A stretch of 32,040 nt of DNA from assembly GCA_021787845.1 (NCBI GenBank), contig JAJYLH010000061.1, forward strand, positions 1 to 32,040, in the 5' to 3' direction. This stretch comes from Myxococcales bacterium. GTDB lineage: Bacteria > Myxococcota > Myxococcia > Myxococcales > JAJYLH01. The notes beneath the pieces were generated by a model that saw only the letters and a program-made list of their open reading frames with translations, made no database searches and was not told where the DNA came from. How positions within the stretch are numbered: the stretch's first letter is position 1; the number at the start of each line of letters is the position of its first letter. The position numbers and the translations under genes are program-made. Below are positions 1,139 to 15,948 of the stretch, piece after piece.

Positions 1139-2176
1139 ATGACTGAACGTGCCGCGAAGGTGAAGGACGTCCCGCTCGCCCTCGTGAAGGGCGGACGGGG
1201 AGAACGAGAGGCCGAAGAAACGCACGAGCTCGACGAGCCGGTGGCTGCCTCGCCGGCAATGCGCCGCGTGTTCGAGCTGGCCCGCAAGGTGGCGGACTCG
1301 ACCATCCCGGTGCTCATCCTCGGGGAGACGGGTACAGGGAAAGAGGTCGTGGCCCGGTTCCTCCACGCGAAGAGCCCGAGGCGCGGGCGGCCGTTCATCG
1401 CGGTGAACTGCGCGGCGTTGCCCGACGCGCTCGCCGACAGCGAGCTGTTCGGCCACGTGCGCGGCGCCTTCACCGGCGCCGACCGCGAGCACCGCGGCGT
1501 CTTCGAGCAAGCCGATGGCGGCACGTTGTTGCTCGACGAGATCGGGGACTTGCCGCTCCCGATACAGGCCAAGCTCCTGCGGACGCTGGACGATGGAGTC
1601 GTCCGCCGGGTCGGCGCTGACCGTCCGACCCGGGTGGACGCGCGCCACGTCTGCGCCACCAACCGCGACCTCGCCGCCGACGTGACCACCGGCCGGTTCC
1701 GCGCCGACCTGTTCCACCGCATCCGCGGCGTCACCATCGGCGTGCCGCCCTTGCGTGAACGGCCCGAGGACGTGGAGCCGCTCGCGCGGCGCTTCCTCGC
1801 CGATGCCAGCCGGGAGCGCTCTCGCCCGCCGCGTCTCACCGCCGAGACGATCGGGTGGCTCCGGCGCCAGCCGTGGCCCGGCAACGTCCGCGAGCTTCGC
1901 CAAGCGGTCCATCGGGCGGTGACCGTCGGCGGCGACGTGCTCGACCTGCCCGACTTCGCGCTCGACGCCGAGCCCATCGGGCCAGCGCTTTTGCCCGCGC
2001 TCGACGAATACCTGCCGGGCAAGACGTGGGCCGAGGTCGAGCGTGACGTGCTGGTCGCCGCGCTCCGCCGCCACGGCTCCGCCCGTGACGCCGCGTCAGC
2101 GCTCGGCCTCAGCAGGTCCACCGTCTTCCGCAAGATCGCGGCGTACGGGTTGAGAGCGGGAAGCGCGGACGAGTGA
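1139..2176 (+). CDS. Sigma-54-dependent transcriptional activator (AAA+, Fis HTH)
   Basis: This 345-residue protein has the layout of a bacterial enhancer-binding protein without a receiver or GAF sensor domain. A short N-terminal segment (about 1-35) leads into an AAA+ domain with Walker A GETGTGKE (62-69), the sigma-54 contact loop GAFTGA (109-114), Walker B TLLLDEIGD (129-137) and PWPGNVREL near the C-terminal end of the ATPase. A Fis-type HTH (SARDAASALGLSRSTVFRKI) ends the protein. The intact GAFTGA loop predicts real sigma-54 activation. With no sensor domain, activity is probably set by its level or by a partner. It is flanked upstream by a palindrome and downstream by a strong terminator, so it is likely monocistronic. 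Its targets are unknown, and no sigma-54 promoter (TGGC-N8-TGC type) was recognised nearby. Confidence 0.88.
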   Translation: MTERAAKVKDVPLALVKGGRGEREAEETHELDEPVAASPAMRRVFELARKVADSTIPVLILGETGTGKEVVARFLHAKSPRRGRPFIAVNCAALPDALADSELFGHVRGAFTGADREHRGVFEQADGGTLLLDEIGDLPLPIQAKLLRTLDDGVVRRVGADRPTRVDARHVCATNRDLAADVTTGRFRADLFHRIRGVTIGVPPLRERPEDVEPLARRFLADASRERSRPPRLTAETIGWLRRQPWPGNVRELRQAVHRAVTVGGDVLDLPDFALDAEPIGPALLPALDEYLPGKTWAEVERDVLVAALRRHGSARDAASALGLSRSTVFRKIAAYGLRAGSADE

Positions 2177-2672: not shown

Positions 2673-5273
2673 TCAGTGCACCATACCCTGAACATGCCAC
2701 TGACTAAGCCTCCGGTAGACATCTGAAAACGGGCGTGTCATGGCGCCATCACTTACGACAGCCAATGCACCCTGGCGGAACCGCTCTTCAACTTCCGGAA
2801 ACGGCTCTTCCTTAGATACCACACCGACATCACGAAGGAAATCAAGTGCTCGTTCCTCAGCCGCGCCCTCCGCAGCCCTAATTCCACCTCCGAAAGCAGT
2901 CTCGTTCCTGCGTTCCCCAGTAAAGTTCAACATTCGGTGAAGCACCCGTTGGAGCGCAACGAGCGAAAGCTTATTAGGAGTGATACTTCCAAACACAAAA
3001 TACCGCTGCGACTCGCTAATCGTCTCATCATCTATCTGCGACTCAAAAAAGGCATTCACAGCATCGCCTAAGCCCATGCAGTCTTCTCCGATCACGCAAC
3101 GTACAAGAACGCAAGCACGAAACGATGTGACTGAACTAAAACGACACGACGAGATCACTGTGTCGTGGACCTGACAGGACTCAAAGTTGACGCTTGACAG
3201 ATCCAAGTTCTTAAGTGTACCCGAATACTCAAACCCACGAGCGATGTACAATCCCCTGCTCATCTCAAGAAAATCAGGGGTCCTAAGTCCATCAGATTTC
3301 CTCACGGGCATAACGTCACACAGGATCCGAAATAGAGAGCCTATCGCACGAGGTGAACATTTTAGTGATGTGCGCCGGCTCCATACAACTTGCGCAACCT
3401 CGCGACTATTATCGAAAGCAGCGAGCGTGTGACCAGCAAGTTCACACACATCCCCAAAATTGTCCGCAAGGCGGAGCAGAAGCGGGCCGATCCGTCTAGT
3501 GATTTGGGAGAGCAACTCATCGCCCTCAGCAATACCCCTAAGCGCTGCCACGACCTCTTCGGACAACAGAGCATCTCTAAGCGTGTCGTTTCGCAGGGAC
3601 AGATGACCATCCTTCAGACTCACGAGTACGTGATGATTCGCAAAACGCTGCGCATCGGCCTCCGACAAACCCTCAACTTGCGCAAGCAGAATGAAGTCCT
3701 CAACCTGACACTCTTCGCCGAACTCAATCAGCGCGCTACAAATTAGCGCCAATTGCGCCTTCCCATCAATCGGGAGGTCATGCCTCTTCTTCTCTCGCTC
3801 GCACATCATGTAAGCAATGCTGGCGAGCGGATTCGCCCTGTTAATACCGTGCGCAAGGGCATCGAAACGACCATCCGAACGACGGTAATCAAGCGCAGCA
3901 TCACAAAGGTACCGAAGCACCAATGGTGTCAGCCACTCGTCGTTGCCGCCGACCTTGCGTATCACCGTTCTAACGCGATCCAACACAGCCGAGGTACTCC
4001 CAAGCCGCTTCGTCAGATACTCATCCCTCTGCGCCACATCAAAAGGAACGAGCGTGAACACGTCGCATTGCTGGCGTAAGTTAGGATCAACAAGTGCCCA
4101 AAAACTTGGTCTAGCACTAAGCATCACCCGAGTCTGACTTCTTTTCAGTCTTGTTAAGCCCAAGATCCTCTCTACCAAGGCATTAGGAGAGGTACTCGAG
4201 CCACGACTACACACTTCATCGAAACTATCAAAGAGCAGCCCAAGGACACCATTCGCCACAAGTGCGTCTAGATGACCAAGGTCGAGGTTTCCAAATCCCT
4301 GCCGCTTAAGCGCAGCCTTCAAAAGATTCTCCGGTGTCATCACGGCCCGTGATTTCTGCACTTCAAGCCAATCTTCGTCTCCAACGAGCAGAACAGACTT
4401 ACCACCTCCGCGGAGGATGCGGGACGCGGCCTCCGCAAGGAGCGTCGTCTTGCCTGCCCCGCCAGTACCCAGGAGGACAGTAAGGCGGCCGGCGGTCTTT
4501 GATGTTACAAACTCTTGGACGACTCTCGTGGCCTCTTCGACGGTCTTGCCCAAAGGATCTTTGAGACGCGGCTCGACAAAAAGATCCTTCTCTCGGCTAA
4601 TTTGTGGAGCTTGACGTCTCACCACGCGCTTCAAAGCAAACGCGCGGAGCTGCGCTTCTAGTAGCCAAGTGCAATCTAGCAACCCATGAAGTGAATTTCG
4701 TAAGCTTGTGTTGTCGACCGGCAGGAGAAGACCAAACGTTCGCGTAATAGTTCGGCCTGACATGCGAATGTTCTTTAAGGCGTCCGCTGCTGAAGCCGCT
4801 ACATCTTTGATGTTGGAAACAGGCTTGTCAGACCCAAGCAAGACAACAACTGCAACCGTAGCGTCATCCTCAACCAATGCCTGCGGCTCAGCCGCCGTCC
4901 AAACCTCCCAGCGGCTCGCGACGAAGTGTTCGCGGATCGGGTTCACGAGACCGTTCATCTCGAGAAGACGCGGGAACAGCGGGAGACCACTCTCTTCGGA
5001 TACATTTTCAACAAGGGGTGGTGCACTGGCTGCGATGCGCTTTTCATTGCGCGACGTCACTGACTCAGGCAGTCGGTCGAAAAGACTGGAGCGGCTGGCC
5101 TCTTCCTCGTACACATGGAGACGCTCCAACGTGACATCGAGGGACTCCATGGGCGGAACATAGGGGACGAATCCCCGGCGCCGAGCGTCAGCATGATTGG
5201 CCGCTTCCCGACGAAGAGCTTCGAGAAGCTGAGCGCGGGTCATCGATTGCAGGCACTTGCGTAACGTTGTCAT
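2673..5273 (-). CDS. NACHT-type STAND NTPase with a duplicated N-terminal domain; candidate anti-phage protein
   Basis: In this 866-residue protein, residues 1-70 form a small charged domain (LLEALRREAANHADA, GFVPYVPP) that is also encoded alone just upstream. Residues 75-240 match nothing I recognise. A NACHT-like P-loop NTPase follows, with Walker A GTGGAGKTT (269-277), Walker B LGLLFDSFDE (344-353, with the extra acidic residues typical of NACHT) and an SARP sensor near 386-389. A long helical part comes next, and residues 684-730 have pentapeptide-like spacing (LKNLDLSSVNFESCQVHD). In STAND proteins the NTPase oligomerises when the C-terminal sensor recognises a trigger and so activates the N-terminal effector; bacterial NACHT and Avs proteins do this against phage. 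No catalytic effector motif is visible in the N-terminal part. The start overlaps the upstream stop by 4 bases (ATGA). Base composition is clearly less GC-rich than in the neighbours, which indicates transfer. Confidence 0.8.
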   Translation of the reverse strand: MTTLRKCLQSMTRAQLLEALRREAANHADARRRGFVPYVPPMESLDVTLERLHVYEEEASRSSLFDRLPESVTSRNEKRIAASAPPLVENVSEESGLPLFPRLLEMNGLVNPIREHFVASRWEVWTAAEPQALVEDDATVAVVVLLGSDKPVSNIKDVAASAADALKNIRMSGRTITRTFGLLLPVDNTSLRNSLHGLLDCTWLLEAQLRAFALKRVVRRQAPQISREKDLFVEPRLKDPLGKTVEEATRVVQEFVTSKTAGRLTVLLGTGGAGKTTLLAEAASRILRGGGKSVLLVGDEDWLEVQKSRAVMTPENLLKAALKRQGFGNLDLGHLDALVANGVLGLLFDSFDEVCSRGSSTSPNALVERILGLTRLKRSQTRVMLSARPSFWALVDPNLRQQCDVFTLVPFDVAQRDEYLTKRLGSTSAVLDRVRTVIRKVGGNDEWLTPLVLRYLCDAALDYRRSDGRFDALAHGINRANPLASIAYMMCEREKKRHDLPIDGKAQLALICSALIEFGEECQVEDFILLAQVEGLSEADAQRFANHHVLVSLKDGHLSLRNDTLRDALLSEEVVAALRGIAEGDELLSQITRRIGPLLLRLADNFGDVCELAGHTLAAFDNSREVAQVVWSRRTSLKCSPRAIGSLFRILCDVMPVRKSDGLRTPDFLEMSRGLYIARGFEYSGTLKNLDLSSVNFESCQVHDTVISSCRFSSVTSFRACVLVRCVIGEDCMGLGDAVNAFFESQIDDETISESQRYFVFGSITPNKLSLVALQRVLHRMLNFTGERRNETAFGGGIRAAEGAAEERALDFLRDVGVVSKEEPFPEVEERFRQGALAVVSDGAMTRPFSDVYRRLSQWHVQGMVH
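5131..5230. repeat. 100-bp direct repeat, copy 1 (inside the NACHT gene)
   Basis: All 100 bases are identical to 6293-6392. Outside this block similarity falls to about 22 of 30 bases on the lower-coordinate side and ends soon after the block on the other. The segment encodes the core of the shared N-terminal domain. Perfect identity, even at synonymous sites, inside otherwise diverged homologues points to recent recombination or gene conversion. Confidence 0.95.
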
Positions 5274-6130
5274 GATCGATCTCCGCAGCCGAGAACAAGC
5301 TCTAAACCCGCTTCGACATTGTCAAACGAACGCGGCGTCACAGGACCATGAACTTCAAGGATCTTGTCGAGAGACCGCGTTCGAACGATCCCTGGTTGGC
5401 AATATGAGTATGCCTGAAGGCCCGGTTCACCAGCCAGAGGAACCAGCGGTGGTGTCGGTGGTGGAGTGTCAGTGTCAACAACGGGGGCGAGGTGAATAAG
5501 ATCGCGAACTAGGCCGCGAGTATCAGTCAGGACGAGTCTAGCGCTGTGCTGACGAATATACGAAAGGTGTTGAAGCCATAAAGAAGAGGAGACAACGATC
5601 CATTTGGACCTGTCATGAAGCGTTACCACGTCGCCTCGGGCAACCACGGGGGGAGACAAATCATAGCGATTGCGCGGATGAGAGGGAGGATCCAACAAAA
5701 TGATACGAAGTCGGCTCATAACCTCCTCGTTGGGAGCCACCTCACAAAAGGGCTTGCTTATATTGGTAATCGCGCCAAGTTCAGATGCTGTGCTTGCGTC
5801 CGGTTGGGTACACAGAAATAGTCCCGCCTTGTCCAGGGGGTAAATCTGTGGTGGGTCCTCGACCGAGAATAGTAACAGCTTCCTGCTGCCGTGGCTGGCA
5901 TGAAAGCTTTTCTGGTGGGCATACAAGCTTGTCCGAGGTACGTAGAAAAAGGCATCTAGGCAACAGGCAACCTCTTTATCACATACGAAGAGTGCCGGAT
6001 GGGATCCCTCGCTACTGTTGAGCTCAGCGCCGGTGCCACGGAAGTAGAGCCCACGCACCTCCCACTGTTTGGGTAAAGGAGCAGAAGTAGCAGTTGTTGG
6101 CGCGGTAGGAATCGGATTCGGTTCAGCCAT
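5270..6130 (-). CDS. Unknown protein coupled to the NACHT NTPase
   Basis: This is a 286-residue protein of no family I recognise. It starts at an ATG with AGGAGG seven bases upstream, and its stop overlaps the NACHT start (ATGA), so the two are almost certainly co-translated and functionally linked. The N-terminus is Pro/Thr/Ala-rich and disordered (1-20). The middle is mixed alpha/beta and ends in RGDVVTLHDRSKWIVVSSS (about 165-185), faintly like the first strands of a PemK/MazF-type barrel, too weak to assign. A TPPPTPP linker precedes the last 65 residues. There is no signal peptide or membrane segment. It could be a trigger sensor, an effector or a modulator for the NTPase. Base composition matches the low-GC cargo. 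Confidence 0.75.
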   Translation of the reverse strand: MAEPNPIPTAPTTATSAPLPKQWEVRGLYFRGTGAELNSSEGSHPALFVCDKEVACCLDAFFYVPRTSLYAHQKSFHASHGSRKLLLFSVEDPPQIYPLDKAGLFLCTQPDASTASELGAITNISKPFCEVAPNEEVMSRLRIILLDPPSHPRNRYDLSPPVVARGDVVTLHDRSKWIVVSSSLWLQHLSYIRQHSARLVLTDTRGLVRDLIHLAPVVDTDTPPPTPPLVPLAGEPGLQAYSYCQPGIVRTRSLDKILEVHGPVTPRSFDNVEAGLELVLGCGDRS

Positions 6131-6204: not shown

Positions 6205-6453
6205 TTAGTCTCGGAATGTTGCTCCCTCGAGCAGGGAGTCGAAGGCTCCCGAGCGCTGGGCTTCTTCTTCGTACGCCGGGAGGCGGTCCCTCGTGACATC
6301 GAGGGACTCCATGGGCGGAACATAGGGGACGAATCCCCGGCGCCGAGCGTCAGCATGATTGGCCGCTTCCCGACGAAGAGCTTCGAGAAGCTCGGCGCGG
6401 TTGTCCGCCTGAAGATACTCGCGCAGCGAGCGTGGCTTGTTCGGGTTCCGCAT
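6205..6453 (-). CDS. Small stand-alone copy of the NACHT protein's N-terminal domain
   Basis: This 82-residue, highly charged soluble protein aligns end to end with the first ~70 residues of the NACHT NTPase. Both have LRxxLQ near the start, then an identical run from LLEALRREAANHADA through GFVPYVPP to MESLDVT, then RL..YEEEA.RS..FD. The family is unknown to me. The helical N-terminal half with Arg/Glu repeats and the short Pro-rich stretch suggest a protein-interaction domain. By analogy with STAND systems in which matching adaptor domains pair, it may bind the NTPase as a recruiter, inhibitor or activation partner; this is inference. I chose the second of two adjacent ATGs because AAAGGAG lies five bases before it; the other ATG is at 6456. 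A hairpin masks this ribosome binding site. Confidence 0.65.
   Translation of the reverse strand: MRNPNKPRSLREYLQADNRAELLEALRREAANHADARRRGFVPYVPPMESLDVTRDRLPAYEEEAQRSGAFDSLLEGATFRD
6293..6392. repeat. 100-bp direct repeat, copy 2 (inside the 82-residue gene)
   Basis: This is the second copy of the block at 5131-5230, in the same orientation and 1162 bases away. It is in frame within the small gene as it is in the NACHT gene. Recombination between the copies would delete the 286-residue gene and most of the intervening DNA and would fuse the small gene's start to the NACHT gene body. Confidence 0.95.
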
Positions 6454-6509: not shown

Positions 6510-6788
6510 CCGCACTCGGATGGAACTTGCTGAACGTGTTCTGCGCGGTCGACGTGAGGGATGAAGCTCCGCCACGGCCGCGCCGACCAGTCGGAAACGA
6601 TGACTGGCCGGCAACTCCACGGGTGGAGCCACTGGTCAAGCATCGTCGATGGCGGCAGATAGCTGTCCATGATCCCGCAGTCATCCTCGCACGTACACTA
6701 CCTGAACGTGCATCATGCAAGGTGAAGGGGCAGCCGGTCAAGAGGAATCGTCACTGGCGCTTTTCGCATTGCCGGAATGACGTTTACG

Positions 6789-6820
6789 CTACGTATATCA
6801 TATATGCGTAGGTCTGTCAA
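6789..6820 (-). promoter_or_regulatory. Sigma-70 promoter overlapping a palindromic operator, driving the cargo operon
   Basis: On the minus strand a perfect TTGACA (6820-6815), a 17-base spacer and TATACG (6797-6792) form a housekeeping-type promoter pointing at the 82-residue gene and the NACHT pair. A 23-bp interrupted palindrome (CTACG...CGTAG, 6789-6811), AT-rich inside, covers the spacer and -10 box, as a repressor site would. The predicted leader is about 330 nt. Confidence 0.6.
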
Positions 6821-7167: not shown

Positions 7168-7857
7168 ATGGCGGACCGGAAATCCGGGGTGCCGCGCGGT
7201 TCTGGTAGAGCAACGCCGAGCCAGAACACGGTCAGCACGTCGCAAGTCGAGCCTGCTTCCCCACAGCTTTCTCCAGATGCGCCGGTGTCGGCGCCTGCGG
7301 TGGCGTCCAGCCCGGCTGGTGCACCTCCTGCGGAGGCGTACGCCGCCGCGTTCCGTCTCGCGGCGGAAGTCGCGACGGTCATCGGCCGCGTTGAGCCCGC
7401 GCTCGCCGTGTTCCTGGACAGGCTTCGAGCTGCCGTTCCAGTCAGTTTGTTGCCCACGCTTCCGGTCCCGCTCAACAGGACCGCTGCACCTGGCACGTCC
7501 GTCGGTCCCGTCTTCGCGGCCGACGGGTACCGCTTCGACCCGCTCGCCAAGACCGCGTTCGACACCATCACCACGACGTACGTCGAGCTCCCGTCCAGCG
7601 CGTGGACGCTGGTCGTCCTCCTTTTCACCTCGCCCTGTCCGCTGGACGAGAACGGGTACCGCGTCGCACGTGGCATCGGCACGAAGGAGAAGACGGGCGC
7701 GCTCAAGGAAGCGGTGCGCCTTCTGCGCCGGCTCCTGCCGCGGCTGCGCATCCGCGCCCGCCGCGGCATCGGGTACGTGCTCGTGGAGCGCTGGCCGGAA
7801 CCGCCTTCGGTAAGCGGGTCCGTTACCGGTTCCTTACCGTCTTCTGCCTCGCGTTGA
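7168..7857 (+). CDS. Putative winged-helix DNA-binding protein
   Basis: This 229-residue protein starts at the ATG with GGAGGT five bases upstream; an in-frame ATG at 7132 lacks such a site. Residues 1-57 are Ser/Pro/Ala-rich and disordered, and 58-92 are helical. The C-terminal part (about 143-207) resembles the winged helix of OmpR-type regulators: WTLVVLLFTSP, a helix ALKEAVRLLRRLLP and the wing RIRARRGIGYVLVE, matching the typical RxxRGxGYxL ending. No receiver domain is present. It is the first gene of the plus-strand series running to the integrase and may regulate it. The fold call rests on the wing motif alone. Confidence 0.55.
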   Translation: MADRKSGVPRGSGRATPSQNTVSTSQVEPASPQLSPDAPVSAPAVASSPAGAPPAEAYAAAFRLAAEVATVIGRVEPALAVFLDRLRAAVPVSLLPTLPVPLNRTAAPGTSVGPVFAADGYRFDPLAKTAFDTITTTYVELPSSAWTLVVLLFTSPCPLDENGYRVARGIGTKEKTGALKEAVRLLRRLLPRLRIRARRGIGYVLVERWPEPPSVSGSVTGSLPSSASR

Positions 7858-7938
7858 AGCAGCCGCTCGTGGTTCACATCGTCGTGCGCGTCAGCTCCGG
7901 ACCTGGACCGGATGCCGCGCACGGAGAGGAGAACGGAA

Positions 7939-9207
7939 ATGGCCCGCCTCGACATCGACGCGACCGCAAAGAAGGTCGCGCTCATCGTGCCCCGCCCGCT
8001 CAAGGCGCTGGTACTGGCGAGCAGTAGCCTCGACGTTCTGCTGGGGGGCATTCGCTCCTTCCACGCGTCCATCCTCGCCATCCTGCTTCCCAAGCGGGTG
8101 ACCGTGCCGCCGTTCCTGCCCCCGGAAGACCGCGCCGCCTACGTCGGCGCCGTTCTGACGGGCGCGGAGAAGGACAGCAAGACGGCGTCGGTCACGGAGA
8201 CGTCGCCGGCGCTGGCGGAGAAATACAGCAAGCGCGCGAAAGCCGCGGCGGCCGAGTTGCCCTCCGTCATGGAGGCGAAGAAAGCGGTGCAGGAGGAGCT
8301 CGACCAGATGCGCGAGCGCCAGGACATGGCGCTTGCGAAGCACGAGAGCCCCAACAAGCTCGAGCGGGTCATCGACACCTGGCGATGGCGCATGGGCTTG
8401 GCGGGGGTCATCGAAACGGGAGTGACGCTCACCGCCGTGGCCGTCTACCACCAGCTCACGGCGTACGGCTCGCTCGCGGCGGTTCCGTTTCTCGTGTGGG
8501 TGTACATCGCCGCGTACACCGCCGGCGCGGTCTTCGGGGCCTGGGCGCTGGGCGCTGGCAACGCCGCCATCTTGTTGAAAGTCAAGACCGACCGGTTCGT
8601 TCCGCTGGCGGTCGGGCTGCTCGTCGTCAGCACCGTGATCTTCACCGGTGCCTTGGGCGCCCTGCGGCTCGTGGCCAGCCGCGTGAGCGCGACCGACACG
8701 CTCACAGCGACGACCAGCGACATCGGCGACCTCGCGCTGTTCATCATCAGCGTCGTCACGACCTTCGTATTCATCCTGGTGACGGCCGCGGGGCGGTACG
8801 AGAGCGCCACGACCCGCGGCAAGCTGCGCGAAATCGATGGCGTCCGTTCGAGCTATGCGGCCCCGATTGGCGCTCTCGAGTCCCGCCTCGCGGAGCTGGA
8901 AGGACGCTGCAAGCAGCAGGAGCGCGAGGTCGAGGACTGGAGTCGGTTGCAGGCCTCGTTCGAGACCGCGGTCCCGGAAATGCGTCGGGCGCGCGGCGAG
9001 ATCTGCGCCCGCCATGCGGCGGATGAAGCCCAGGCCGTCGCCGCCTGGGAAGCACTGTCGAAGCTCGGCGTGGTCGCGCGCGAGGCGGTCATCGACGAAC
9101 TCTACGTGCTCGTGCCCGACACCGACCCGCACGACCCTGACTACGTCGCCCCCCACAACCAGCCCGTCCCCACCAACACCGTGCCGACCGCCGCGGCGAA
9201 GCGGTGA
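7939..9207 (+). CDS. Coiled-coil inner-membrane protein of the element operon
   Basis: This is a 422-residue membrane protein of unrecognised family. Start: ATG preceded by GAGGAG. The N-terminal 150 residues are soluble, with a charged helical stretch (about 95-145). Four hydrophobic segments follow at about 153-171, 178-200, 219-242 and 262-285. The C-terminal 130 residues contain a likely coiled coil (ESRLAELEGRCKQQEREVED) and a Pro/Thr-rich tail. This topology fits a scaffold in an envelope-spanning complex. The stop overlaps a possible GTG start of the next gene, and the following genes are closely packed, so it belongs to the same transcription unit as the lipoproteins and the ATPase. 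Confidence 0.7.
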   Translation: MARLDIDATAKKVALIVPRPLKALVLASSSLDVLLGGIRSFHASILAILLPKRVTVPPFLPPEDRAAYVGAVLTGAEKDSKTASVTETSPALAEKYSKRAKAAAAELPSVMEAKKAVQEELDQMRERQDMALAKHESPNKLERVIDTWRWRMGLAGVIETGVTLTAVAVYHQLTAYGSLAAVPFLVWVYIAAYTAGAVFGAWALGAGNAAILLKVKTDRFVPLAVGLLVVSTVIFTGALGALRLVASRVSATDTLTATTSDIGDLALFIISVVTTFVFILVTAAGRYESATTRGKLREIDGVRSSYAAPIGALESRLAELEGRCKQQEREVEDWSRLQASFETAVPEMRRARGEICARHAADEAQAVAAWEALSKLGVVAREAVIDELYVLVPDTDPHDPDYVAPHNQPVPTNTVPTAAAKR

Positions 9208-9221
9208 AGACCGAGGTGACC

Positions 9222-10040
9222 ATGCGTCCGCACCTGCACGTCCAGTCCACCACGGCGCCCGCCCGCAAGTCGTGGGCGGGCCGCCGGCTGTTCGCGCTCG
9301 TCCTGCAGGCACTCTCCCTGCTCGTACCCGTCGCCGCCTGCACAGTGAGCCCGCCGACGCCGGTGTCGGTGGTCGTCGTCTGCGACGCGACCGGCACGAA
9401 CCCGTCGGCGGTCTGCACCAAGTCGCTGCTGCATCGCGCCGGGCGCGAGTGGGCGAGCGTCTCCTTCGACGCCCCCGGCAGCCGGCTGTCCGTCATCGAG
9501 CCGGGGGCCGACTTCGGCTCGGCCGAGGTCTACGGCCCGCTCGTGGTCACGAGCCATCCGAAAGGGAGCGGCCCGCTGGTGCAGCGCCAGACTTGGGAGC
9601 GCACGGTCGAGAAGTTCATCGACACCATCCCGGTCACCCCCGACGACGCCGGAAACCGCACCGACGTGCGCTCGGACCTCTTCGGCGCCTTCACGGTCGC
9701 CGTCGCTCTCGCATCGGAGGCGCCGAAGGGAGGCAAGGCGGTGCTCATGGTCGCGAGCGACGGGCTGGCCATCAACCAGAACGTGTCGGCCGATTTCGAG
9801 TGGCAGATCCCCTCCGAGAGCGACCTCGGGCCGGTCCTGAAGCGCGCCGGTCTCGCACCGTCCCTACGGGAGTTCGCGTCCATCACCTTCTGCGGCTTCG
9901 GCTCGACCAAGCTCACGCCGGAGCTGTTCGAGGCCCGCGCCGCTTTCTGGCGGGCGTACGCGCGTGCGGGAAGCGGACCGGAGCCCGCCTTTCTTTCGAC
10001 GTGCGCCGGCACGGTACCTCTTCTTTCGAGCACCCCGTGA
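9222..10040 (+). CDS. vWA-like lipoprotein 1
   Basis: This 272-residue lipoprotein precursor has an Arg-rich n-region, a hydrophobic stretch and the lipobox VAAC with the lipidated Cys at about 40. The mature part begins with a strand and Asp motif, VSVVVVCDATGTN, like the first strand and metal site of von Willebrand A domains. It later has TDVRSDLFGAFTVAVALA and the strand VLMVASDGL, like vWA strands that carry a second Asp. The chain ends SITFCGF...PAFLSTCAG. The next gene encodes a related protein with the same landmarks. I chose the ATG with GAGGTG three bases upstream; a GTG at 9204 overlapping the previous stop is possible. Likely site: periplasm or outer membrane, as part of the operon's envelope complex. 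The vWA call is fold-level inference. Confidence 0.65.
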   Translation: MRPHLHVQSTTAPARKSWAGRRLFALVLQALSLLVPVAACTVSPPTPVSVVVVCDATGTNPSAVCTKSLLHRAGREWASVSFDAPGSRLSVIEPGADFGSAEVYGPLVVTSHPKGSGPLVQRQTWERTVEKFIDTIPVTPDDAGNRTDVRSDLFGAFTVAVALASEAPKGGKAVLMVASDGLAINQNVSADFEWQIPSESDLGPVLKRAGLAPSLREFASITFCGFGSTKLTPELFEARAAFWRAYARAGSGPEPAFLSTCAGTVPLLSSTP

Positions 10041-10072
10041 GCGCTCCTGCCGCCCGTCACGGAGAAACGACT

Positions 10073-10996
10073 GTGACCACGCCCAACCACCAGGCCACCA
10101 GCGCCGAGGGCAGGATGACCAAGCACCCGCCGACCCGCGGCAGACCATCCACCCCGGCACGTCACGCCGCCATCCGGTGCCGCCTCCGGCTCGCCGGAGT
10201 CGCCGGTGCTCTCTTGCTCATCGCCTGCTCGTCGAAACGCGCCGTCTTCGTCGTCTGCGACGTCTCGGGCGCCACCCGCGCCTGCACGCCCTCCGTCGTC
10301 GGCAACATCTTCGACCACTTCCTCAACACGCCGTCGGTCCGTACGGGCTCCGTCTTCGCGGTCGTCGAGCCCTACGCCGACGGCGGACCGGCGCACGCGG
10401 ATTTGCCGGTCATCCTCCCCAGCTTTCGGACACCGCTTGATCCCGACGTGTACGAGGCGTGGAGGCGCCTGAGCCGCGAGCAGGTCGTCGGGAACATCAA
10501 GACCAAGGTGCATCGCAAGGGGCTTGACGACCTTGTTCCGGCCCTGGTCATGGCCTCCCACCTGAAGAAGGCGCTCGCTTTGCACGAGGACGGCGCGCTC
10601 ATCGTCGCCGCCGACGGGTTCGGGTTCGGCAGCGCCGTTCCCGCCAGCGCGATGCCTTCCGGGGTCGAGATCATCGAAGGTGCGCGGGCGCGCAAGCAGG
10701 TCCCCGACCTGTCGGTCTTCTCCCGCGTCACGTTCTGCGGGTTCGATCGCACGTCGATTTCCACCGACCTCGCCGACCGGCGCATGTTGGCCTGGTACTG
10801 CGTGGTGCAGTTCTGGGGCGGACCTGCTCCGCGCTTTCTCGCGTCCTGCGATGCGCTTGCGGACGACAACGGCGGCCACGATTCCCCGCACCCCGGCGTC
10901 GTCCTCGCGTCCGCCGCGCGCCTGCGCGTCGACCGGATGCAGATCCAATTCGAAGAGGGAGCGAGTCGTGCCCAACGCGCGAGGAGGGGCCGATGA
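10073..10996 (+). CDS. vWA-like lipoprotein 2 (paralogue of the preceding gene)
   Basis: This 307-residue lipoprotein precursor starts at GTG with GGAG eight bases upstream; ATG at 10115 is the alternative. The hydrophobic h-region ends in the lipobox LIAC with Cys at about 52. The mature part opens with VFVVCDVSGATR, close to the DxSxS metal site of vWA domains. It then has LVPALVMASHLKKALA and ALIVAADGFGFG and ends VTFCGFDRTS...PRFLASCDA. The same order of motifs in the previous gene shows that the two arose by tandem duplication and have since diverged strongly. The stop overlaps the next start (ATGA). The pair may form a heterodimer in the envelope. Confidence 0.65.
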   Translation: MTTPNHQATSAEGRMTKHPPTRGRPSTPARHAAIRCRLRLAGVAGALLLIACSSKRAVFVVCDVSGATRACTPSVVGNIFDHFLNTPSVRTGSVFAVVEPYADGGPAHADLPVILPSFRTPLDPDVYEAWRRLSREQVVGNIKTKVHRKGLDDLVPALVMASHLKKALALHEDGALIVAADGFGFGSAVPASAMPSGVEIIEGARARKQVPDLSVFSRVTFCGFDRTSISTDLADRRMLAWYCVVQFWGGPAPRFLASCDALADDNGGHDSPHPGVVLASAARLRVDRMQIQFEEGASRAQRARRGR

Positions 10997-11355
10997 ACAT
11001 CCTGGGATCGCTCGTGTTCCTGGCCTCGTGCGTCATCGCCTTCGGCGTGATGCTTGGACGTGAAAAGCCCGATGCCGGGATGCGCCGGATCGTCGCGGTC
11101 TTCGTCTTGGCCATCTTCGCCCCAATCACGTTGCGCTTCTTGCTCACACAAGTCCGGTGTTTCACCGCCTCCCTTCCATCGCTGCACCCGCTCGACGCTG
11201 ATGCCCGCTTCCTTTTCTACGCGCTCCTCTCGCTTTTCGCCCTCATCGTGCTCGTCGCCGGCTACGTGGCCTTCGTCAACCGCCACCGGCGTCTCAAGGC
11301 GTGGCGCGGGCAGCAGAAAACGGCCCGCAAGGTCCGGGTGGACCATGACGATTGA
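10993..11355 (+). CDS. Small three-helix membrane protein
   Basis: This 120-residue protein has hydrophobic segments at about 4-21, 33-51 and 74-95 and a basic cytoplasmic tail (NRHRRLKAWRGQQKTARK). No family was recognised. It overlaps the lipoprotein gene by 4 bases and the ATPase gene by 11, which argues for tight co-expression. Its size and position beside a DNA-translocase-type ATPase suggest a membrane anchor or channel component for that enzyme; this is inference from context. Confidence 0.7.
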   Translation: MNILGSLVFLASCVIAFGVMLGREKPDAGMRRIVAVFVLAIFAPITLRFLLTQVRCFTASLPSLHPLDADARFLFYALLSLFALIVLVAGYVAFVNRHRRLKAWRGQQKTARKVRVDHDD

Positions 11356-12850
11356 CGCGACCGGCTGGAGCTTGTGGCGCCGCGGCTCTCCACTGGCGCT
11401 GCCGCCTCCCGTGTCGGAGGGGTCGGTCATCGGCGTTGCGAACTCGGGCGAGCCGGTGGCGTGGCCCGTCCTGCACCCGGAGCGGGCCGGCCACCTGCTC
11501 CTGCTCGGCGGGAGCGGTACCGGGAAGACCACGATGATGGCCAGTGCCCTGGTCGATGAGATCGCCGCCGAGACCGACTGGTCGAAGGAGAAGCGCTCCG
11601 CCCACTTCGTGATCGAGCCGATGAAAGATGACCTGGGCTCGGCAATCCTGTCGGGCATCGCCGCACGCTGCCCCGAGCGCCTGTCGGACGTGATCGTGGC
11701 CGATCCGTTCAGACAACCGTTCCCGTGGAACCTCGTCCGACTGCGAACCAAGACTGAGCCCGAGATTCGAGCCTTCCAGCTCGCCAACCTCGCCGCCACG
11801 CTCTCCACGGCGAGCGGCAGCCAGGCACACCTCGGCATCGGCGCGCGCCAGGCCGACGTGATGATGCACGTCTGTCTCGGTGTCCTGACCGCCTCACATC
11901 CGGCGGCCAACCTCACCTGGTCGGTCGATGCCCTGATGGACCCGAAGGGCTTGACGTCCTTGGGCGCGGTCACGGCCTCGCCGCGCGTGCGCCAGTTCTG
12001 CGGCGGGTACCTGAGCGACGAGCTGAAGGCCTCCTGCGCTTCTCGACTCCGCCTCGCATTCGCCCTCACTCCGGCCGTCGAGCGGATGTTCGGCGCCAGT
12101 GCTTGCGTCCAGTTCGCCAAGTTGTTCGCGCCCGGCAAGATCGTGCTCCTGGCCCTCGGAAGCCCACCAGGAGGGCAGAAGGAACTCGCTGCGTTCTGGG
12201 CGAGTCTCTTCACGCGCCTCGCCGTCGATCACCTGCTGGAACGTCGAAGTCCTTGGACCGGCCACGCGGTACGCATCGTCATCGACGAAGCGCACCTGGT
12301 CGCGGGCGTGCTGGCCGACACGGCCGAGATGCTCTTGACCACCGGGCGTTCTCGCGGCATCGCGCTCGTGCTCGCCACGCAGACGCCGGTGCTGTTCAAC
12401 GAGGCGTCCACCAGCCTTCTGCGGGTGCTGCTCACGAACGCCCCGATGAAGACCACGGGCCGCCTGGCGGCCGCAGATGCCGAAGCATTCGTGAAGGAAC
12501 GGGCGCCCGCGCGTGGCGTCGAAGAGACCCTCACCGCCACCCGCTCGCGGGCCTTCGCCCGGCTCGTCAATCTCGAAGACCGCGAGTTCGTCGCGATCGA
12601 AGCGGGCCGGACGCGGGCCTTCCGCACCAAGGACGTGGACCTCGAGGGCTGGGCCAAGGCCGCCGAAGTCCACGCGGACGCCATCGAGGCGGCGCGCCAT
12701 CGTGCAGCCCTGCCGGAAGGGAGCCCTGCTCCGGTGCCGCTCTCGGTCGCCTCGCCGCCGCCTGAGCGTCGCGGACGCCGGCGGGAAGCGGTGAGCGCGT
12801 CGCCCTCCGTTTCCAACGCGCCGACTCGCGCGCGCTCACGGTGGGGCTGA
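11345..12850 (+). CDS. HerA/TraG-like ATPase (DNA translocase or coupling protein type)
   Basis: This 501-residue P-loop ATPase has Walker A GGSGTGKT (55-62), then FVIEPMKDDL and VIVADPFRQPFPWNLV. The latter correspond to the DPKGD and DP...NPL segments of TraG/VirD4 and HerA/DUF87 proteins. Walker B is IVIDEAH (311-317), followed by LVLATQTP (342-349), the usual sensor. The C-terminal 60 residues are Pro/Arg-rich and disordered. There is no membrane segment of its own, unlike VirD4, so the adjacent small membrane proteins may anchor it. Known relatives pump DNA during conjugation or repair. In this element a transfer role is most likely, but an antiviral translocase cannot be excluded. The start overlaps the previous gene. 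Confidence 0.8.
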   Translation: MTIDATGWSLWRRGSPLALPPPVSEGSVIGVANSGEPVAWPVLHPERAGHLLLLGGSGTGKTTMMASALVDEIAAETDWSKEKRSAHFVIEPMKDDLGSAILSGIAARCPERLSDVIVADPFRQPFPWNLVRLRTKTEPEIRAFQLANLAATLSTASGSQAHLGIGARQADVMMHVCLGVLTASHPAANLTWSVDALMDPKGLTSLGAVTASPRVRQFCGGYLSDELKASCASRLRLAFALTPAVERMFGASACVQFAKLFAPGKIVLLALGSPPGGQKELAAFWASLFTRLAVDHLLERRSPWTGHAVRIVIDEAHLVAGVLADTAEMLLTTGRSRGIALVLATQTPVLFNEASTSLLRVLLTNAPMKTTGRLAAADAEAFVKERAPARGVEETLTATRSRAFARLVNLEDREFVAIEAGRTRAFRTKDVDLEGWAKAAEVHADAIEAARHRAALPEGSPAPVPLSVASPPPERRGRRREAVSASPSVSNAPTRARSRWG

Positions 12851-12852
12851 CC

Positions 12853-13215
12853 ATGCGATTCCTTTCCACACTCTTGAAGTTCGCCCTCGGGATGGTGCGC
12901 CTGGCCTTCAAGGTCTGCGTGCTCTTGGTCGAGGGCGCCTTCTGGACGCGCCTCGTCGCCCGCGGGGCCAAGGACGTCCTGGTCGATGCCACCCGAGGGC
13001 TGCCGGCCTTAACCGGCGCGCCGCTCGAATGCCCCGAGGGCCACCTCTTCGATCCCGAAGGAGCCGTGTACCGCTGCGAGGCGTGCGGCTGGACGTACCG
13101 GGGCTCACCGTGGACGTGCCCGAACCCCGAGTGCTCGGCCTCGACCAGCCCGTACACGAATTGCCCTATCTGCGGCTTGAGCGTCCGCAACCCGGCAAGA
13201 TGGGGGCGGCCATGA
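12853..13215 (+). CDS. Membrane-anchored zinc-ribbon protein
   Basis: In this 120-residue protein the N-terminus (about 1-30) is an amphipathic or membrane helix. The C-terminal 60 residues hold three Cys clusters (CPEGH, YRCEACGW, then WTCPNPEC and NCPICG), enough for two zinc ribbons of the rubredoxin-like type. It lies between the ATPase gene, 2 bases downstream of it, and the replication-relaxation-like gene, overlapped by 4 bases. A GTG at 12841 overlapping the ATPase stop is another possible start. Zinc ribbons in this setting often bind DNA or partner proteins, so it may dock the ATPase or DNA at the membrane; function unproven. Confidence 0.65.
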   Translation: MRFLSTLLKFALGMVRLAFKVCVLLVEGAFWTRLVARGAKDVLVDATRGLPALTGAPLECPEGHLFDPEGAVYRCEACGWTYRGSPWTCPNPECSASTSPYTNCPICGLSVRNPARWGRP

Positions 13216-14090
13216 GCGGACGTGCGAGGAAGGTCCCCCGTACCCGCCGCGCGCGTGGTCGAACGGTCGAAGTGGGCGAGCGTGACTACGACCTCCTGGA
13301 GCTCTCCGGCCTCTCCAGCTACCTCACGGCCGACCACCTCGCCCGCTCGGGACTCTTCCCGAATCCCGACCGCGCCCGGCGGCGCGCACGCGCGCTCTTC
13401 GACGCGGAACTCCTGAACGTCACCCTGGTTGGCTCCGCGAGAGCGAGCCTGTACTCACTCTCGCGGAAGGGACTCGCCCTCCTTGCGCGTGAGCGGCCCG
13501 GGGTCGCTGCCTCCCTGCACCTGCCCGGTCCGGTGCGTCTCTCCGCCGTGCCCCACCGGCTGGCCATCGTGGACGCGCGGCTCTTTTGCTCCGCGTTGGG
13601 GCAGCTCCGCGGCTCGCCCCTCGCGCGGTACGCGTCCGGTGGTGGCGAGTGGGCGCGGTCGCTGGGGCTGCCTGACCTCGGGGTTGCCCCCGACGCCCTG
13701 GCGGAGTTCACGACCCCCGACGGACCGGTCGTGATCGCCATCGAGGTGGACTGCGGCACCGAGTCGCTGCCGGTCATCAAGGCCAAGATGACCCGGGTGG
13801 CACCCGCCGCGACCGACGGTCGGCTCGACGCCTTGTGGTACGTCGCGGACGCCGGGCCGGCGCGCGCCGCGGGCATCGAGCGGGTCGTCGCCGACGCCGG
13901 GCTCGACTTGTGGGCGCGGGTGCTGCCGCTCGCCTTCGTCAACGAGCGCCCGGTGCGCGACCTGCCCGAGCGCGCGGGCGGGGGCGGTTCTGGCCGAAGG
14001 CCAGAAAACGCTTCCCCAACCCGTGCACAGAATGGCCTGGAATCAAGTGAATCCGTGATCGAGACCCGCCCGCGATGGGGGCAGCGATAG
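13212..14090 (+). CDS. Replication-relaxation-like protein (Replic_Relax type)
   Basis: This 292-residue protein has a basic tail, then a winged-helix region at about 24-92 (DYDLLELSGLSSYLTADHL, RARRRARALFDAELLNV, LYSLSRKGLALL). It has a PHRLAIVDARL segment and then VVIAIEVDCGTESLPVIKAK, the conserved EvDxGTE...K block of replication-relaxation proteins. Members are found on conjugative and mobilizable elements next to TraG-like ATPases and act at the origin of transfer or replication. The E..D..K pattern also resembles a degenerate nuclease core. The last 40 residues are disordered. It overlaps the zinc-ribbon gene (ATGA). Family assignment by motif only. Confidence 0.6.
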   Translation: MSGRARKVPRTRRARGRTVEVGERDYDLLELSGLSSYLTADHLARSGLFPNPDRARRRARALFDAELLNVTLVGSARASLYSLSRKGLALLARERPGVAASLHLPGPVRLSAVPHRLAIVDARLFCSALGQLRGSPLARYASGGGEWARSLGLPDLGVAPDALAEFTTPDGPVVIAIEVDCGTESLPVIKAKMTRVAPAATDGRLDALWYVADAGPARAAGIERVVADAGLDLWARVLPLAFVNERPVRDLPERAGGGGSGRRPENASPTRAQNGLESSESVIETRPRWGQR

Positions 14091-14141
14091 GCGGGGGCGA
14101 TAGGTGAGGGATGGAAGGGCTCACGCGAAGTGGTGAGACGC

Positions 14142-14176
14142 TGGTGGTCGACCAGGCTGACCAACCTGACCACCAA
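14142..14176. repeat. Iteron-like tandem repeats before the HTH gene
   Basis: GACCAGGCT, GACCAACCT and GACCACCAA lie head to tail at 14150-14176 with a 9-base period, preceded by TGGTGGTC, the inverted form of the last unit. This could be a binding site for the HTH/excisionase-like protein encoded just downstream, or part of a transfer or replication origin. Confidence 0.45.
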
Positions 14177-14218
14177 GGCGATGGCGTAGGCGCCGGGAGC
14201 GAGAAGAAGGAGAGCGCG

Positions 14219-14440
14219 ATGATCGAGCCGACGAACGAGGACGGTCTGTGGACCGCCGACCAGGTGGCGGCGTACCTGCACGCCTCCAGGTCGTGGGTCT
14301 ACCAGCGAGCCGCCAGCGGAGAACTGCCCTGCGTCAAGATTATCGGGCTCTTGCGCTTCGAGCCGGAAACGATTCGGGCGTTCGCCCGCGGCGAGCGCGT
14401 CGCCGGCACGCAGCGGGCGGTGGCGGGGCCGCCGCGGTGA
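14219..14440 (+). CDS. Helix-turn-helix protein, excisionase-like
   Basis: This 73-residue protein matches the MerR-like HTH_17/excisionase pattern: LWTADQVAAYLHASRSWVYQ, then a short wing VKIIGLLRFEPETIRAF. Start chosen because AAGGAG lies six bases upstream. Proteins of this size beside an integrase usually act as recombination directionality factors (Xis) or as regulators of the integrase gene. It lies 90 bases before the integrase, separated by a hairpin, and 42 bases after a set of 9-bp repeats that it might bind. Confidence 0.75.
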   Translation: MIEPTNEDGLWTADQVAAYLHASRSWVYQRAASGELPCVKIIGLLRFEPETIRAFARGERVAGTQRAVAGPPR

Positions 14441-14530: not shown

Positions 14531-15937
14531 ATGGCATCGGTCTATGAGAAACGCGGCGTCTGGTACATCCGGTTCAAGGACGCGCTGGGCCGCTGGACCG
14601 CGGAAGCGTCGAGGGCCAAGACCAAGGGCGAGGCCAAGCACCTGGCCTTCGACCGTGAGAACGACGAGCTGCGCCTGCGCGACGTGCGCCTGACGCTGCC
14701 CCAGCTCGACCCGTCGATGTCGTTCGAGAAGCTCGTGAACTTCTGGTGGAAGGAGTACGGCTCGAGCCTGCGCTCCGTCACCGTCAAGGGCTCGCTCGAG
14801 AAGCACCTGCTCCCCGCGCTGGGCAACCTGACCCTCTCGCAGGTGACCGGCGCGCAGATTGAGGCGGTCCTGAAGTCGAAGGAGGGCGAGCTCGCCCCCG
14901 CGACCTTGAACCGGCTGCGCGGCGTCGTGCTGCGCATCTTCTCGGTCGCGATCCGGCGCGGGCTATGGAACGGCGCCAACCCGGTGCTGATGGTCCCGCC
15001 CTTCAAGGTGCCCAAGCGCCTCCCCGAATATCTGCGCGCCCACGAGGTGCCGCTCCTGCTCGACGCGCTCTTCCCGCCGTGGCGGCCGCTGTTTGCGACC
15101 GCCATCTTCACGGGCCTTCGCCAAGGCGAGCTGCTGGGGCTGCGCAAGACCGACGTGGACCGCGAGACGGGGGCCATCGCGGTGTGCCGCTCCTACGACG
15201 CCGACACCACCAAGGGCGGCCGGGCGGCCTTGGTCCCGATCGCTCCCGAGCTGGCCCCGTTCATCGACGAGGCGATCAAGTCCTCGCCTCCCGACTCCGA
15301 GCTGCTCTTCCCCGCCGCCGACGGCTCGATGCGGGCGCGCGACACGGCGCTCGACAAGGTGCTGCGCCGGGCGCTCGCCCGCGCCGGCCTCGTCCTGTAC
15401 GTCGAGCACCGCTGCCGCGCCCGTGGGTGCGGCCACAAGGAGCGGCACCCGGACGACAAGCTGCGCACCTGCCCGAAGTGCGAGAGCCGTAAGGGGCACC
15501 GCAAGCTCTGGCCGGTACCGGTCCCGAGGCACGTGCGCTTTCACGATTTGCGGCACACGACGGCGACGTTGCTCCTCAAGGCCGGCGTACCGCTCGCGAC
15601 GGTGCAGCGCATCCTGCGCCACTCGAACCCGACGATCACCTCCGAGATCTACGGCCACCTGGACCTGGAGGACCTGCGCCGCGGCGTCGAGAAGCTCTCC
15701 TTCGGCCTGCCGCAGAAGGATTCACCGCCAGTGAAGTCGGACTTCACCACGGAACGTCCCGCCGAGCCGGTTTTGGATCCCGTTTGTTACCCGTTTGCTA
15801 CCCGAGCCGGTTTCGAGGGGGGTACGGGGAGAAACGACACGCCCGAATCTCCAAGAGATTCGGGCGTTTGGGATGGTAGGCCCGATTGGTTTCGAACCAA
15901 CGACCTCTTCCGTGTCAAGGAAGCGCTCTACCACTGA
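14531..15937 (+). CDS. Tyrosine integrase with a zinc-ribbon insertion; 3' end inside tRNA-Val
   Basis: This 468-residue phage/ICE-type tyrosine recombinase has an N-terminal SAM-like DNA-binding domain at about 60-145. The catalytic residues are R197 (TGLRQGELLGL), H338-R341 (HDLRHT), H364 (LRHSN) and the nucleophile Y374 (IYGHL). Between the first Arg and HxxR there is a Cys/His cluster, CRARGCGHKE...CPKC (295-317), predicted to bind zinc. After the catalytic domain a 90-residue tail continues. Its last 21 codons are antisense to the tRNA-Val gene, and the stop lies inside that tRNA. The tail therefore depends on the attachment site, as described for the Mx8 integrase of Myxococcus. Start: ATG 14531, preceded by AGGGG. 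Confidence 0.92.
   Translation: MASVYEKRGVWYIRFKDALGRWTAEASRAKTKGEAKHLAFDRENDELRLRDVRLTLPQLDPSMSFEKLVNFWWKEYGSSLRSVTVKGSLEKHLLPALGNLTLSQVTGAQIEAVLKSKEGELAPATLNRLRGVVLRIFSVAIRRGLWNGANPVLMVPPFKVPKRLPEYLRAHEVPLLLDALFPPWRPLFATAIFTGLRQGELLGLRKTDVDRETGAIAVCRSYDADTTKGGRAALVPIAPELAPFIDEAIKSSPPDSELLFPAADGSMRARDTALDKVLRRALARAGLVLYVEHRCRARGCGHKERHPDDKLRTCPKCESRKGHRKLWPVPVPRHVRFHDLRHTTATLLLKAGVPLATVQRILRHSNPTITSEIYGHLDLEDLRRGVEKLSFGLPQKDSPPVKSDFTTERPAEPVLDPVCYPFATRAGFEGGTGRNDTPESPRDSGVWDGRPDWFRTNDLFRVKEALYH
15780..15801. repeat. Tandem 11-bp repeats near the attachment site
   Basis: CCGTTTGTTAC and CCGTTTGCTAC follow each other directly and differ in one base. They lie inside the integrase 3' end, about 75-95 bases from the tRNA, where arm-type integrase or Xis sites are expected. 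Confidence 0.4.
15840..15866 (-). terminator. Hairpin terminator downstream of tRNA-Val
   Basis: CGCCCGAATCT (15840-15850) and AGATTCGGGCG (15856-15866) form a perfect 11-bp stem with a 5-nt loop. It lies 8 bases beyond the tRNA 3' end on the minus strand, with TGTCGTTTCTC following. It sits on the element side of the junction and inside the integrase reading frame, so the element appears to supply a terminator for the tRNA. Confidence 0.65.
15874..15937. other. Putative attachment site (att junction)
   Basis: The 3' part of tRNA-Val is shared with the end of the integrase gene. Elements that insert in tRNA genes usually recombine in the anticodon-loop to 3' end segment and keep the tRNA functional by bringing an identical 3' end. 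The exact crossover cannot be seen because the other junction is outside the window. Confidence 0.6.
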
Positions 15938-15948
15938 GCTACGGGCCT
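15874..15948 (-). tRNA. tRNA-Val (anticodon GAC)
   Basis: The 75-nt cloverleaf reads in full. The acceptor stem AGGCCCG pairs with CGGGCCT, the D stem is GCTC/GAGC, the anticodon stem is CTTCC/GGAAG with loop TTGACAC (anticodon GAC at 15916-15914), the T stem is GTTGG/CCAAT with loop TTCGAAA, the discriminator base is A and the CCA is encoded. Its 3' half overlaps the integrase coding sequence on the opposite strand and is the probable integration site. Confidence 0.97.

Follow-up and report, generated by a model that had tools for sequence, protein, structure and literature searches.

What is a block of seven closely packed genes, among them genes for lipoproteins and for a DNA-translocase-type ATPase, doing beside a tRNA gene in a myxobacterial genome? 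We addressed this question for contig JAJYLH010000061.1 of the Myxococcales bacterium assembly GCA_021787845.1, using its whole stretch of 32,040 nucleotides (the window; the entire contig C38 of a 6.24-Mb host genome in 153 contigs). The seven genes are all open, lie on the plus strand in the same order (7912-9207, 9204-10040, 10037/10073-10996, 10993-11355, 11345-12850, 12853-13215 and 13212-14090) and overlap by 4-11 bp at most junctions, in keeping with the packing described in a first-pass annotation. That annotation had drawn the unit at 7168-14090; the seven genes remain at 7912-14090, while 7168-7857 is a separate upstream gene and the functional unit reaches to 15937, taking in an excisionase gene, an integrase gene and a tRNA gene. 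We propose, with a probability of roughly 0.74, that this module is the DNA-processing and delivery (mobilisation/transfer) part of a new tRNA-integrating element family, which has four divergent members in the host genome, one of them in the window, and that DNA mobilisation is its function. The module is best read as a MOBC relaxase and split-coupling-protein core joined to a novel envelope complex of von Willebrand factor A (vWA) type.

The setting of the module was established from the genes that follow it. An excisionase-like HTH_17 protein (14111-14440, plus strand; PF12728, 2.7e-8; phrog_66) is followed by a tyrosine integrase (14531-15937, plus strand; PF00589, 2e-21; phrog_1, 7e-66), and the 3′ end of the integrase gene runs into a tRNA-Val(GAC) gene of the opposite strand (15874-15948, minus strand; ARAGORN and Rfam), the presumed integration target, whose 3′ end points towards the element. 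Because excisionase, integrase and tRNA-Val adjoin the module, the region is taken as the tRNA-proximal end of an integrative element extending leftwards; no second attachment (att) copy for tRNA-Val was found within the window, so the left end of the element probably lies beyond the contig. The first-pass annotation had offered a conjugation-like machine or a surface system as alternatives. The conjugation-like appearance and the mobile nature stand, whereas a free-standing surface system is ruled against by the adjoining genes for excisionase and integrase and by the tRNA target.

The last of the seven genes (13212-14090, plus strand) encodes a protein that passes PF13814 (Replic_Relax; E = 4e-8, 34 bits against a cut-off of 25.3), as do all six of its relatives, with E-values down to 1e-18. 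PF13814 is the domain of MOBC relaxases (Coluzzi et al. 2017, Table 1, PMC5357655), which are related to the PD-(D/E)XK endonuclease superfamily (2025 type IV secretion system nomenclature review, PMC12857230). A pair of intact MobC proteins of CloDF13 type, taken from plasmids that PLSDB assigns to MOBC, served as the yardstick, the mobC frame being fragmented in the CloDF13 record itself. Profile comparison of the 13212 family with these proteins gave an E-value of 4.5e-5, and both share the stretch PDALAE...A-[IF]-E-V-[DE], in which P160, D161, E178 and V179 are invariant in all six aligned sequences and D180 stands where MobC has E. The NCBIfam MobC subfamily model gave 10 bits against the 200 required, which places the product outside the CloDF13 subfamily itself. 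An AlphaFold2 (AF2) model built without an alignment was too poor to confirm the fold (predicted local distance difference test, pLDDT, 34). Membership in the MOBC/Replic_Relax family is thus established at the sequence level, and the product is a predicted nicking relaxase that keeps the MOBC active-site signature, contrary to the earlier statement that the operon held no complete relaxase.

Further copies in the same genome show the module in other settings. The ATPase has three homologues besides the window copy (44-46% identity), adjoining genes for tRNA-Asp (L006), tRNA-Pro (L007, contig C99) and tRNA-Arg (L008, contig C92), and in all three loci the order is coiled-coil/vWA, small transmembrane (TM) protein, ATPase, TM zinc ribbon, Replic_Relax, helix-turn-helix (HTH) protein and integrase. 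In the C99 copy, 23 bp of the tRNA-Pro 3′ end are repeated exactly at a distance of 42.3 kb, between flanks that are unrelated; the repeat is att-like, as expected of attL/attR, and would bound a 42-kb element. That these islands have decayed and lost the function of their genes seems very improbable: the C92 ATPase is split across two frames, through sequencing error or decay, and a second relaxase-like gene of C99 looks broken, but all module genes are open in the window, L006, L007 and two loci of other genomes (L020 and L026), catalytic residues are kept, and the genes for ATPase, relaxase and zinc ribbon differ least between copies at codon position 2.

Relatives outside the host were sought at increasing taxonomic distance. 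Neither the 99 genomes searched of the same order nor the 147 of the same class held one besides the host itself, while the phylum search (195 genomes) gave relatives in three genomes, two with the full order and one with a variant core. In G165, locus L020 carries coiled-coil protein, vWA lipoprotein, small TM protein, ATPase, TM zinc ribbon, MOBC, HTH protein and integrase beside tRNA-Leu; unlike in the other loci, the 5′ end of this tRNA points towards the integrase, making it less certain as the target there. In G183, locus L026 carries a fused coiled-coil-vWA protein, small TM protein, ATPase, TM zinc ribbon, MOBC and integrase at tRNA-Arg. In both loci an att repeat was looked for and not found. 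Locus L019 of G192 keeps small TM protein, ATPase, zinc ribbon and MOBC, with the coiled-coil/vWA genes replaced by a pair at L019:7662-9094, namely a JAB-domain TM protein (Prok-JAB, 4e-6) and a protein judged E2-like by eye, without a Pfam match; this may be a ubiquitin-like-processing pair beside the ATPase-zinc ribbon-MOBC core. The tblastn matches from the window proteins were LpA (the first lipoprotein) to L026 at 1e-24 and to L020 at 2e-9, coiled-coil protein to L026 at 6e-6, zinc ribbon to L020 at 1e-6 and relaxase to L019 at 4e-17. Pattern scans of genome contigs with the ATPase and relaxase, and a search of plasmids, gave no relatives. Viral contigs gave one distant ATPase (L021) with a MOBC-like neighbour judged by eye.

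The conserved order therefore runs coiled-coil protein, vWA lipoprotein(s), small TM protein, ATPase, TM zinc ribbon, MOBC, excisionase, integrase and tRNA. The suggestion of the first-pass annotation to look for such conservation was borne out, since the order was found in distant genomes of the same phylum, and its recurrence in four identically ordered copies together with relatives in two further genomes takes the module well beyond chance. Within it, coupling ATPase, MOBC relaxase, excisionase and integrase follow one another as they do in a known mobilisation module, which supports a mobilisation function.

The ATPase (11345-12850, plus strand) contains Walker A and B motifs and matches TrwB/TraG coupling proteins and HerA/FtsK weakly; the TrwB_AAD_bind model gave 20.1 bits in the window (cut-off 20.5) and passed with 22.2 bits in L026. 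By hydropathy it has no TM segment, unlike coupling proteins with their usual, though not universal, N-terminal TM domain. In every locus the ATPase gene is preceded, and mostly overlapped, by a gene whose small product has one to three TM segments; the window copy (10993-11355, plus strand) has three TM segments by hydropathy and a basic tail. The TM domain of the coupling protein MobB of CloDF13 is essential for mobilisation (PMC7431656). Our inference is a split coupling protein, in which the small TM protein could be the detached anchor of the ATPase. The ATPase gene is followed by that of a membrane-anchored zinc ribbon (12853-13215, plus strand), whose CxxC pairs are conserved in all copies. 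The R[ST]R[WF]G C-terminus of the four host ATPases was considered as a docking motif and given no weight, because in three of the four copies its codons coincide with a Shine-Dalgarno-like GGTGGGG that precedes the following start, and because it is absent in L019, L020 and L026.

The left half of the module encodes predicted envelope proteins. The coiled-coil protein (7912-9207, plus strand) has about four TM segments by hydropathy and homologues in L006, L007 and L026. It is followed by lipoprotein LpA (9204-10040, plus strand) and its paralogue LpB (10073-10996, plus strand; start uncertain between GTG 10037, GTG 10073 and ATG 10115), which is 28% identical to LpA and has its nearest relative in L008 (42% identity). 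Eight lipoprotein copies have a lipobox-like [AGS]-C following a hydrophobic stretch and share four cysteines; they also share, though not without exception, the motifs D-x-[ST] and [SAT]-D-G. An AF2 model for the lipoproteins is of low confidence (pLDDT 50), with a strand and helix order that agrees with vWA, and its Foldseek matches are mostly vWA folds, including TFIIH p34, vWF A1/A3 and PitA. These proteins resemble vWA domain proteins in predicted alpha/beta order, Foldseek matches and the positions of D-x-[ST] and [SAT]DG, and differ from typical ones in their four conserved cysteines, in giving no Pfam vWA match, and in keeping the metal ion-dependent adhesion site (DxSxS, T, D) in part, the last residue of DxSxS being mostly lost. 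On this low-confidence model the vWA-like assignment made from the first-pass reading holds. Four loci (L006, L007, L008 and L026) encode the coiled-coil protein with the vWA domain joined to its C-terminus and the lipobox kept inside the chain, which makes it very likely that coiled-coil and vWA proteins work together; the fused protein may be cut by signal peptidase II.

On a different reading of these components, the excised element would rely on the MOBC-like protein and the ATPase for its replication, segregation or maintenance, or the two would act in defence, with the envelope genes acting in exclusion or surface sensing and no DNA moving between cells. Annotations of PF13814 proteins include a role in replication as well (phrog_9381, 'replication initiation by nicking') and HerA-like ATPases occur in defence systems (with weak PADLOC matches here), yet lipoproteins exposed outside the cytoplasm would be unexpected in replication, the envelope genes match no defence system, and the pairing of a coupling ATPase with MOBC matches known mobilisation modules, so that we regard this reading as quite unlikely. 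Its defence version was rejected, the evidence being weak HerA and mad8 matches with no effector-partner match among the module genes.

Under the mobilisation reading, excisionase and integrase would release the element as a circle, which the MOBC relaxase would nick at an origin. The soluble TraG/HerA-like ATPase, docked at the inner membrane by the small TM protein, the TM zinc ribbon or both, would pump the DNA, the assembly amounting in effect to a coupling protein split into separate genes. The coiled-coil protein would span the inner membrane and hold the vWA lipoproteins, which are probably disulphide-bonded, outside the cytoplasm. There they might be an adaptor that links the module to the mating pore of a helper, or else form a minimal conduit or contact complex encoded by the element.

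Comparable arrangements are found in known systems. CloDF13-type MobB/MobC of MOBC1 plasmids likewise combines a coupling-type ATPase gene with an adjacent PF13814 relaxase gene, a pair also seen in MOBC plasmids, and shares the PDALAE...E-V-[DE] signature; in contrast, the module ATPase lacks a TM domain, a TM zinc-ribbon gene stands between ATPase and relaxase, the element integrates, and vWA and coiled-coil envelope genes are added. Class 8 of the streptococcal integrative mobilizable elements (IMEs) combines a VirD4 coupling protein, a MOBC relaxase, an excisionase and an integrase (PMC5357655). Its compact order of coupling protein, PF13814 relaxase, excisionase and integrase is that seen here, whereas the present element has a tyrosine integrase in place of a serine one, a tRNA target, envelope genes and a split coupling protein, and belongs to a different phylum. 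Integrase, excisionase and relaxase occur in one unit, as in an IME, with an att-like repeat seen for the C99 copy and not for the window copy, and we file the element as integrative mobilizable-type with a new envelope module.

Several points weigh against mobilisation as the function. The ATPase family matches are weak and mostly under the curated cut-offs; the envelope proteins have no characterised homologue, their role in transfer being drawn from gene order and fusion; no origin of transfer (oriT) was recognised; and neither transfer nor excision has been observed.

Whether the module would need a helper was approached through VirB4, the sole marker of type IV secretion systems (T4SSs) searched. 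It was found neither in the host genome, in a search that gave matches in 8 of 14 control genomes, nor in G165 and G192, and no resident helper was recognised in the host. Nor was any VirB-like gene recognised in the module, as the first-pass annotation had already remarked, the left part of the window element lying beyond the contig. If mobilisation is right, dependence on a helper is the favoured branch, and self-sufficiency the less favoured one.

The actinobacterial integrative and conjugative elements (AICEs), with TraB/FtsK transfer, offer a parallel for self-sufficiency, being minimal modules of one motor ATPase, small membrane proteins and an integrase; single-ATPase transfer of this kind is comparable in logic to a self-sufficient exporter. 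Unlike AICEs, the present element has a MOBC relaxase, its ATPase is nearer to TrwB/TraG/HerA than to TraB on weak matches, and its host is presumably two-membraned. The stronger branch of our explanation, in which the module is fully self-sufficient as a T4SS-independent DNA exporter of a two-membrane bacterium, draws on the VirB4 result, on the conservation of the envelope genes together with the relaxase across the phylum and on the persistence of four copies within one host. Against it stand two VirB4-like genes elsewhere in G183, the reliance on a single marker, the chance that a helper is transient, the lack of any module product resembling an outer-membrane pore, and a second coupling-type ATPase in the C99 element (C99:31602-34856, L016; TrwB, 3.9e-9); we consider this branch rather unlikely. 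It is likewise unlikely that two-membrane bacteria have such a T4SS-independent machine, in which a MOBC relaxase and a split coupling ATPase, together with an envelope complex of vWA lipoprotein and coiled-coil protein, would move the element between cells without VirB-type proteins.

No description of such a module was found in the open-access literature searched. If the mobilisation reading is right, it names a tRNA-integrating element family in Myxococcota, a group for which no description of such elements was found in this literature, and it gives a compact, testable DNA-mobilisation module in which a split coupling protein is joined to a vWA lipoprotein complex; should the module need no T4SS, DNA would be crossing two membranes by a new route.

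The elements also carry genes outside the module. A second Replic_Relax-like protein occurs in three of them (L008:18327-19217, minus strand; L026:17820-18809; C99 at about 40116-40795), the L008 and L026 copies being 51% identical across genomes. The C99 element has a CHC2 primase-like gene, judged by eye, and its second ATPase region is resembled by the order ATPase, MOBC-like and CHC2-like (by eye) in the viral locus L021. In the window, a sigma-54 activator (1139-2176, plus strand) probably belongs to the element, being 86% identical to the activator of the C92 copy (L008:15776-16807, minus strand); in L006 a different activator lies upstream of the module. The separate gene immediately upstream of the window module (7285-7857, plus strand; start uncertain between 7132, 7168 and 7285) has no Pfam match of its own. 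The C-terminal part of its product resembles a Trans_reg_C protein at the equivalent place in L026 (BLASTP E 7e-4, a single comparison), and it is possibly an OmpR-type winged-helix regulator.

Further left, probable cargo is formed by a low-GC pair at 2673-6130 (minus strand; GC 0.53-0.60 against about 0.70), comprising an NTPase of NACHT/STAND type (866 aa; weak NACHT/nSTAND and Avs matches) and an overlapping partner (286 aa), perhaps with an anti-phage role. Through a 203-bp direct repeat (82%) at 5064-5266 and 6226-6428, the beginning of the NACHT-like gene occurs a second time, upstream of the partner gene, as though it were what is left of another copy. In the gap before the module, an AT-rich near-palindrome at 6784-6816, CTACGTATATCATATATGCGTAG, is a possible operator or origin region.

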